This document shows, one piece after another, positions 1 through 1,368 of a stretch of DNA of 12,839 bases (positions within the stretch are counted from its first letter, which is position 1; each line of letters opens with the position of its first letter). The translations under genes and the position numbers were made by a program. Source of the stretch: Salegentibacter sp. (lineage in GTDB: Bacteria > Bacteroidota > Bacteroidia > Flavobacteriales > Flavobacteriaceae); NCBI GenBank assembly GCA_024635815.1, contig JAGXIG010000064.1:1-12839 (forward strand), read 5' to 3'. The notes under the pieces were generated by a model. That model saw only the letters and a program-made list of their open reading frames with translations, searched no databases and was not told where the DNA came from.

Positions 1-12
1 AACGGTCTCCTT

Positions 13-19
13 TACTTTG
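13..19 (+). promoter_or_regulatory. -7 half of a promoter completed by IS circularisation
   Basis: TACTTTG at 13-19 resembles the Bacteroidota -7 element TAnnTTTG, with one base fewer. In the linear element no matching -33 box can be seen because the flank is absent. If the ends join at the GT core, TTTG from the right end (1221-1224) lies 20 bp upstream, which is the expected spacing. A transcript would then start near 25, just before the bridge RNA stems. Junction promoters are known for IS110-family circles; this one is inferred. Confidence 0.45.
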
Positions 20-24
20 TTTTA

Positions 25-180
25 ATATCTTAAGAGAGAACTAAGGGGAGCACTATAACGGTCTCTAGATTGGAACTATTAAACGTAAGAGTCCCCTTAG
101 CTTCTACTAATGTTGCGAAGAACTAATTGGAATACCAGGTCTATTAGGACCCGTTAAAGGAGATAGTTAACGCAACTCAA
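25..180 (+). ncRNA. Candidate IS110 bridge RNA (target loop plus donor loop)
   Basis: Two stem-loops are visible in the leader. The first has a perfect 9-bp stem, 41-49 with 92-100, around a 42-nt loop. The second has stems 112-117/171-176 and 121-125/164-168, and is capped by GGTC 138-141 with GACC 148-151. In the second loop the left arm TTGGAATAC (127-135) equals the right end of the element (1228-1236). The right arm TAAAGGAGA (155-163) is the reverse complement of the left end (6-14). In the first loop AACGGT (57-62) equals the left flank plus core (1-6). The order of target loop then donor loop follows IS621. The transcript ends are guessed; the guide matches are read directly from the sequence. 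Confidence 0.75.
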
Positions 181-201
181 TTTTAAATCGAATTTAAAGA
201 T

Positions 202-1197
202 ATGAAAAATTACGAGTTAGCAGTAGGGATTGATGTATCCAAAAAAACCTTAGATGTTTTTATTCATAACCATAGTAAACATCGGGTCTTTGATAATACT
301 AGGTCAGGCTTTTTGTCTCTTCTGAAATGGTGTACTAAATTTTCAGAAACAGAAAATCCGATTTTATACTGTTTTGAACATACCGGAAACTATTCTTTGA
401 AGCTAGCGATCTTTATGCAAACCAACGGTTTGGATTATGTGCAAGAGAATCCGATAGTGATCAAACGATCTTCTGGATTGGTTAGAACTAAAAATGACCG
501 TGTAGATGCACAAATGATTGCCAGGTATGCCTGGTTGCACAGAGAAGAATTAGTTTGCAGTAGTATAAGGGATGAAGCTTTACTGGAACTGGGAAGATTA
601 TTAAGTCTCAGAGATCAGTTAGTAAGAAACCGCTCAGGGCTGATGGCTACTTTAGAAGAGCTCACCGGGCTTTTATCGAGTCCATCGACAGATGTAAGCT
701 GTAAAACCTTAAAACACACTATAGCTTATCTGAGCAAACAAATCCTTAAGTTGGAGAAACAGATCGATCAGCTTTTAAAAAGAGAGAAACATTTGGGAAA
801 GAATTACCAGTTACTCACCAGTTTAAAGGGAGTAGGTCGGATTCTTGCTTGTCAACTTATTTATCATACTTGTAATTTTGAGCGCTTTAGCAGTTGGCGG
901 CAGTTCTCAAGTTATTGCGGTACCGCCCCATTTGAACATAGTTCTGGAACTAGTGTATTTAAACGGGCGAAAGGTCATCCGATGAGTGATCGAAAGATGA
1001 AAAGTTTGCTAAGTATGGCCAGTGTATCGGCTATTCAACATGACGGTGAATTACGAGCTTATTACCAAAGGAAGGTAGCTGAAGGTAAACCGAAGATGGT
1101 GGCTATAAATAACGTTCGAAACAAGCTCTTATCAAGAGTATTTGCAGTAATCAAGCGTGGAACTCCATATGTAGATCTATGTAAATATGCGGCATAA
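202..1197 (+). CDS. IS110-family transposase (bridge-RNA-guided DEDD recombinase)
   Basis: This 331-residue protein has the two IS110 domains. The N-terminal RuvC-like DEDD domain shows D11 in GIDVSKKTLDV, E59 in CFEHTG, and D99 and D102 in TKNDRVDAQMIA. A helical middle (about 125-200) is rich in Leu and Lys. The C-terminal Transposase_20 domain starts at LTSLKGVGRILA (205-216) and carries the SSGTS segment (247-251), where the family's catalytic serine is expected, followed by GHPMSDRKMKSLL. The length is normal and the frame intact, so the enzyme may be active. In this family it excises the element as a circle and inserts it with the RNA encoded in its own leader. The start ATG follows a weak AAAGA site, as is common in this phylum. 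Confidence 0.95.
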   Translation: MKNYELAVGIDVSKKTLDVFIHNHSKHRVFDNTRSGFLSLLKWCTKFSETENPILYCFEHTGNYSLKLAIFMQTNGLDYVQENPIVIKRSSGLVRTKNDRVDAQMIARYAWLHREELVCSSIRDEALLELGRLLSLRDQLVRNRSGLMATLEELTGLLSSPSTDVSCKTLKHTIAYLSKQILKLEKQIDQLLKREKHLGKNYQLLTSLKGVGRILACQLIYHTCNFERFSSWRQFSSYCGTAPFEHSSGTSVFKRAKGHPMSDRKMKSLLSMASVSAIQHDGELRAYYQRKVAEGKPKMVAINNVRNKLLSRVFAVIKRGTPYVDLCKYAA

Positions 1198-1236
1198 AAA
1201 CTTTCAGTAAAGAACTTGGTTTTGATCTTGGAATAC

Positions 1237-1368
1237 GTTGTTCCCGTTGGCCTTAACGTTTATCCATTTCATGAGAAAAAATTTGGTTTCCATATAGAAG
1301 CTGCACCCATTCTACTTGATGCCGATATTCTAAGAGGGAGTTTTGGGATTCGCTACCGATTTTTATGA
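1237..1368 (+). pseudogene. C-terminal remnant of an outer-membrane beta-barrel-like protein, cut by the IS
   Basis: Starting at the proposed target core, 43 codons plus a TGA stop stay open. They contain VPVGLNVYPF, KKFGFHIEAAP and the end GSFGIRYRFL. Alternating polar and hydrophobic residues in the last strand and a C-terminal aromatic patch (Y, F) are typical of outer-membrane beta-barrels, and the amphipathic strands fit that fold. There is no start codon of its own in this stretch. Joining it to bases 1-6 keeps the frame (ACG GTT GTT CCC), so the parent gene probably lay to the left and was interrupted by the insertion. The protein family itself cannot be named from this tail. Confidence 0.7.

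Follow-up and report, generated by a model that had tools for sequence, protein, structure and literature searches.

An IS110-group element of Salegentibacter with a probable bridge RNA, and relatives in attC-like hairpin sites of Christiangramia

The window, the whole stretch of 12,839 nucleotides analysed here, comes from a Salegentibacter contig. It contains an IS110-group element in which a leader with two predicted guide hairpins precedes a DEDD recombinase gene (Table 1). The 331-residue protein has the DEDD RuvC-like and serine-bearing Tnp domains of the group, both Pfam domains scoring above their cut-offs, and it reaches 186 bits on the NCBIfam model NF033542, 'IS110 family RNA-guided transposase', which has a cut-off of 140. 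At E ≤ 0.001 the only relatives with a solved structure are ISCro4 (9t56, E 2e-24, residues 7-323) and IS621 (8wt6, E 6e-21). D, E, D, D and S of the window protein align with ISCro4; the roles of these residues in ISCro4 are assumed here. The non-coding left end (LE) measures about 190 nt and the right end (RE) 39 nt. The predicted RNA sits in the left end, not in the right end as in the IS1111 group. The element is a member of the IS110 group and a novel example of a known RNA-guided kind, which includes IS621, ISCro4 and ISEc21; the mechanism is not new. An Rfam scan of the window returned no family at its threshold, and the viral contigs searched contained no relative. A plasmid search returned three records at E ≤ 1e-40, each below 40% identity.

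On its right side the element appears, from the translation, to interrupt a gene, of which a 43-codon open tail remains. The tail ends GSFGIRYRFL and is outer-membrane-protein-like by eye. The first base of the window is also the first that the left junctions of the Christiangramia relatives described below have in common. Position 1 may be an assembly edge, a contig break at a repeated element.

Table 1. Features of the IS110-group element and its flanks (window positions)
Feature	Positions	Strand	Remarks
Left target flank (LT), AACGGTC	1..7	+	Identical to LTG 57-63; boundary from empty versus occupied sites in G415 and G405
Left core dinucleotide TC, putative	8..9	+	Exchange position in UKL13-3 and Christiangramia relatives
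Left non-coding end (LE)	10..201	+	Carries the predicted bridge RNA
Right donor CTTTAC and start of LE	10..19	+	CTTTA nearly invariant among relatives
Promoter-like TACTTTG	13..19	+	Motif
Target-binding hairpin, predicted	41..100	+	Stems 41-48/93-100 (one pair skipped) and 52-54/90-92
Left target guide (LTG), AACGGTCTC	57..65	+	Identical to 1-9; tracks left flank in relatives
Right target guide (RTG), reverse complement TACGTTTAATAG	76..87	+	Matches TACGTT at 1234-1239; tracks right flank in relatives
Donor-binding hairpin, predicted	112..176	+	Stems 112-116/172-176, 121-125/164-168 and 138-141/148-151
Left donor guide (LDG), TTGGAATAC	127..135	+	Identical to 1228-1236; first seven bases track right end in relatives
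Right donor guide (RDG), TAAAGGAGA	155..163	+	Reverse complement of 6-14; relatives support weakly
IS110 recombinase, 331 aa	202..1197	+	PF01548 and PF02371
Right non-coding end (RE)	1198..1236	+	Left donor 1228-1234, core AC 1235-1236
TTG half of promoter-like motif	1216..1218	+	Would be completed at the circle junction
Right target flank, open tail of apparently interrupted gene	1237..1368	+	43 codons; translation only

A preliminary description of this DNA had reported that the two loop arms of the second hairpin match the two ends of the element. Both 9-nt matches, of the LDG with the right end and of the RDG with the left, are exact. A further match, which that description did not list, lies in the first hairpin: the LTG repeats the first nine bases of the window and provides a target-loop match. 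The topology is that of IS621, as had been claimed. The 5' arms match the bottom-strand partner, the 3' arms match the top-strand partner, and the target loop comes first.

Relatives were found in 27 of 397 Flavobacteriaceae genomes (E ≤ 1e-60), in 6 of the 24 genomes of the genus of G001, in 3 of the 64 genomes of the order of G003, and at eight loci from assembled genome contigs. The fetched set is part of the matches in the Flavobacteriaceae search and in that of the genus of G001. Matches spanning less than 280 residues were dropped, and removal of three duplicates reduced 76 long matches to 73. Three loci of another lineage (below 36% identity) were also dropped. The remaining 70 elements were parsed by leader anchors and carry 33 distinct guide sets. 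Clade A was defined by at least 50% identity and clade B by 37-47%. Each guide set is represented by one element, and the tests below omitted sets without a left flank (two), a right end (five), or an RDG or left end (three). Anchors and end motifs were picked after the sequences had been viewed, and right ends were located by four motif forms. Because these forms were fixed after looking, non-conforming ends are missing from the LDG and RTG tests. Because the elements are related, the shuffles overstate independence.

The leader structure is conserved among these relatives. Of 396 cells in the 17 clade-A leaders, 94.4% are paired, and 15 of 24 pairs are changed on both sides, with a covariation score of 0.406 against 0.126 when shuffled and at most 0.130 in slid versions. 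Helices 1 and 2 of the target hairpin have 98.3% and 96.1% of cells paired, and helices 3-5 of the donor hairpin have 95.3%, 85.9% and 96.4%. The structure counted combines RNAalifold stems with helices 4 and 5, which were named from the window's own fold; in one of these two, pair 105-148 fails in 9 of the 17 leaders. Applied to all 33 leaders, RNAalifold recovered the first hairpin, with double changes in 10 of its 14 pairs, and did not find the second. The preliminary description had proposed a covariance model search of other leaders. A model built from the 17 leaders, with the window (match 25-185) among its sequences, found all 17 clade-B leaders at E values from 9e-16 to 3e-10, and none of these had been used in building it. 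The same model matched one Chryseobacterium plasmid element (E 2e-8). The hairpin is predicted in the window, but the folding energy of the window leader is ordinary compared to shuffles (z -0.04) and uninformative alone. By eye, L040, L042 and L043 appear to contain an extra target-loop-like hairpin upstream of the leader, which could reflect a duplication of the target-binding hairpin.

Guide arms were compared with ends and flanks across the 33 guide sets, and matches were counted against 5000 shuffles of the guide-DNA pairing. LTGs match the left flank at 7.39 of 9 positions (shuffled mean 3.76, n=31) and RTGs match the right flank at 4.46 of 6 (shuffled 2.27, n=28). For the donor loop, the means are 6.96 of 7 between LDG and right end (shuffled 5.91, n=28) and 2.33 of 4 between RDG and left end (shuffled 1.70, n=30). 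No shuffle reached the observed value in any of these four tests. In clade B alone, the shuffles as good numbered 0 for LTG, 0 for RTG, 38 for LDG and 1143 for RDG; in clade A alone they numbered 0 for LTG, 2 for RTG and 0 for RDG, and the LDG is invariant there. In clade B few changes underlie the LDG result, and the core bases of the LDG mismatch there. At the level of sequence, the comparison shows that LTG, RTG and LDG follow targets and ends across relatives, with the strongest support coming from the two target guides. The window RTG matches its own right flank over TACGTT only.

The comparison of guide arms with ends had also been proposed in the preliminary description, and its outcome differs between the two donor arms: the LDG varies with the right end, and the RDG is supported weakly. 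Support for the RDG is weak because its four testable bases are equivalent to window positions 6-9, two of them target flank and two core, and the inner CTTTA hardly varies. In L114, whose protein is 88% identical, the RDG and the left junction are changed jointly at window positions 7 and 8, and the junction alone is changed at 6. Pairing of the RDG with the right donor itself stays putative.

Empty and occupied sites in relatives define the point of exchange. Christiangramia empty sites read AACGGTC-TC-GGTTATCG and variants, and the set from G415, G405 and G404 also includes AACGGTC-TC-GGTTATC and variants. The corresponding junctions read AACGGTC-TC-CTTTAC on the left and TTGGAAT-AC-GGTTATCG on the right. 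In UKL13-3 (G003), the exchange position is GC in eight of ten empty left halves and AC in the other two, and junctions carry GC in 5/5 cases on the left and 3/5 on the right. These junctions and empty sites place the exchange at window positions 8-9 (TC) and 1235-1236 (AC), and not at GT, the core proposed earlier. Against a GT core, the right junctions in G415, G405 and G404 continue with GG (24 of 25) or GT (one) straight after AC. The 9-nt left match had been said to abut the core; the match stands, and by the boundaries in relatives it includes flank bases 6-7 and core bases 8-9. GC is found on both sides in L003, L005 and L007 of UKL13-3, and TC/AC in the window and in Christiangramia. 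The Christiangramia core is of the form xC, and its first base differs between the two sides, as it does in the window.

Some ends depart from this pattern. The right end is TTGGACG, not TTGGAATAC or its GC form, in L004, L006, L027 and L067, possibly through exchange in another register. L004 and L027 fall in guide sets represented by elements with ordinary ends. A right end was not found for L040-L043. L004 also carries a repeat of part of the target. L078, in UKL13-3, is a short IS110 left-end remnant fused directly to a hairpin site.

The IS110 protein of the window shares up to 94% identity with copies from Christiangramia. For an M28 peptidase of the window, identity is 91% with a Salegentibacter salegens protein and 59-61% with the Christiangramia proteins among the 120 best matches listed. 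The closeness of the IS110 protein to Christiangramia, compared with the host-like peptidase, suggests recent movement between genera. The window copy is not in a cassette site of the kind described below, as a scan of the window for a half of such a site found none. Its pre-insertion target was not found among the 24 genomes of the genus of G001; matches in 22 of them are 64-83% identical, and none lies within 240 bases of the junction.

The element very probably works like a bridge-RNA recombinase, as an autonomous IS110-group insertion sequence with a guide RNA encoded in its leader. This reading of the preliminary description is supported by the IS110-type protein (Pfam, NCBIfam), by the conserved two-hairpin leader with compensatory changes, and by three of four guides that vary with ends or flanks. 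The leader would be transcribed into a bridge RNA with a target loop (LTG and RTG) and a donor loop (LDG and RDG), and the DEDD/serine recombinase would bind it. In a predicted circular form, the left donor and the right donor, which begins at position 10, would meet around the two-base core. The joined donors would pair with LDG and, presumably, RDG. Through LTG and RTG the target loop would base-pair with a sequence of the form AACGGTC-NC-(right flank), and insertion of the element would follow from strand exchange at the core.

A promoter-like motif would be assembled when the two ends join. The form TTG-N18-23-TA-N1-2-TT[TA][GA], modelled on the promoter consensus, occurs in 23 of 29 joined right and left ends against 2.6 expected; it is a loose pattern set after looking, and the elements are related. 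A strict promoter-like form occurs in 2 of 29 joined ends, with 0.05 expected. In L021, L024, L046 and L115, the TTG of the motif is the left donor's own. The motif does no more than agree with expression from the circle, which published passages report for IS621.

Other explanations of the leader were weighed against a guide RNA. The hairpins might be cis-acting DNA sites for the transposase that merely copy the ends. The second loop does copy them, as internal binding sites might. However, the first loop tracks host flanks and not element ends, the stems stay paired through double changes, and the strand arrangement of the arms and the target-first order match published IS621. Cis-acting sites are therefore very unlikely. 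The 9-nt matches could also have arisen by chance in an AT-rich leader, since single 9-mers are short: 20,000 dinucleotide shuffles of leader 15-201, in a test that accepted any 9-mer near either end, gave a right-type match 148 times and a left-type match 484 times. Both matches, however, occurred together in only three shuffles. Each 9-mer is single-copy in leader 15-201, and in relatives the LDG changes along with the right end, the left-end match being less secure. Coincidence is barely credible as an explanation.

The window copy might instead be decaying, with guides that are relics and targets that are no longer selected. The reading frame of 331 aa is open, each of the two donor arms matches an end, and the recent movement between genera suggested above also speaks against decay. 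Decay would fit the absence of a hairpin-site half at the window insertion, the reading of the element into a gene tail and the short match between RTG and flank. On balance we consider it unlikely for this copy.

The element resembles known systems in several respects. As described in passages of Durrant et al. 2024 (PMC11208160), IS621 shares the protein family, a left-end RNA, a pair of hairpins with internal loops, the target loop first and the donor loop second, the match of 5' arms to the bottom strand and 3' arms to the top strand, and an LE longer than the RE, the arrangement published for the IS110 group. Unlike IS621, the window element belongs to a Bacteroidota clade with different targets, is known here from sequence alone, and has an xC core whose first base differs between junctions in clade A. 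The ISCro4 transposase (PDB 9t56) is the best solved relative of the window protein, a likeness seen by protein comparison only. ISEc21, an IS110-type element with a seekRNA, also has its guide RNA upstream of the transposase gene and the bottom-strand match 5' of the top-strand match, according to passages of Siddiquee et al. 2024 (PMC11187229). It differs in target and host, and is set beside our element by description, not by sequence. The same passages report that ISKpn4, an IS1111 element, targets integron cassettes. ISKpn4 and other IS1111-type elements (PMC11187229) thereby share with the Christiangramia relatives a target associated with integron gene cassettes. In the IS1111 type, as described there, the RNA lies downstream of the gene, whereas the present elements belong to the IS110 group, have the RNA upstream and use a different attC-like site. 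The main text of Durrant et al. (PMC11208160) does not contain the word Bacteroid, and their covariation set may include such elements. In the literature searched, one paper, a review judged by its title, mentions bridge RNA, IS110 and Bacteroid together. The present relatives provide a Bacteroidota clade whose guides are readable and can be compared with natural targets and ends.

In genomes of the genus Christiangramia, the relatives sit in attC-like hairpin sites. In G415 and G405, these sites form long cassette arrays beside an integron-like integrase (G415 C1:2236000-2389999; G405 C1:936000-1030000, L098-L110). IS copies number 13 in G415, 8 in G405 and 4 in G404, and each genome's copies lie on one strand. 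Of their 25 right junctions, 24 run into the same hairpin site. Site ends number 142 on one strand and 0 on the other in G415, and 57 and 1 in G405; G404 has 3, G406 9, G001 2 and G004 36. The G415 and G405 stretches contain 189 right halves, 178 of which were paired into cassettes. Start and end are complementary over at least five bases in 130 of these 178 cassettes, whereas 2000 shuffles gave 5 such cassettes on average and never more than 13. Among 168 cassettes of up to 1.6 kb, 131 contain an ORF of at least 60 aa, and 121 of the 131 ORFs are on one strand, opposite to the IS. Cassette starts are mostly GTTR followed by variable bases, unlike the canonical GTTRRRY consensus of an integron site end.

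The choice of target is visible inside these genomes. The exact LTG sequence AACGGTCTC is found at 20 of 21 occupied sites and 40 of 155 empty sites in G415 and G405 (Fisher 6e-10), so that exact matches to the guide are strongly enriched in the occupied sites. Position 7, which lies outside the core, alone matches at 20/21 occupied and 78/155 empty sites (3.5e-5). This is the safer figure, because core bases could come from the element.

All six genomes have an integrase-like gene no more than 5 kb from a site end. In all six the integrase scores below the cut-off of TIGR02249 (integron-integrase), and at that E-value 14 of 14 control genomes match too. The argument is therefore the position of the gene and not the match. 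One such integrase scores 220.3 on NF040815, 'site-specific tyrosine recombinase/integron integrase', against a cut-off of 220. The nearest solved chains are XerC-like 4a8e and XerA 5hxy, with IntI 2a3v third. In the one protein aligned, nothing matched 2a3v residues 212-244, the IntI-specific insert. Integrase relatives at E ≤ 1e-80 occur in 168 of 397 Flavobacteriaceae genomes overall, and in 7 of the 10 genomes with an IS110 match at E ≤ 1e-100. With the integrase threshold at E ≤ 1e-40, 11 of 13 IS110 carriers have it. These counts are only suggestive of a link between clade-A IS110 and the integrase. UKL13-3 contains eight integrase matches at E ≤ 1e-40, at least three of them within 3.5 kb of its hairpin sites.

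The targets lead on to a large cassette system of the Flavobacteriaceae. Passages of two papers (PMC8618304, PMC9668308) state that integrons occur in Bacteroidota. The literature searched, with most subscription journals outside it, yielded no description of this integron-like cassette system. The flavobacterial IS110 clade may aim its bridge RNAs at the structured recombination sites of an apparently undescribed system of this kind, with attC-like hairpins and an integrase without the IntI-specific insert; we put the chances of this at about even. If true, cassette sites would serve the IS as safe harbours, and the IS could block cassettes or move them. In other Flavobacteriaceae, the copies L002 and L023 also adjoin, on their right side, repeat-like flanks with GTTGCG.
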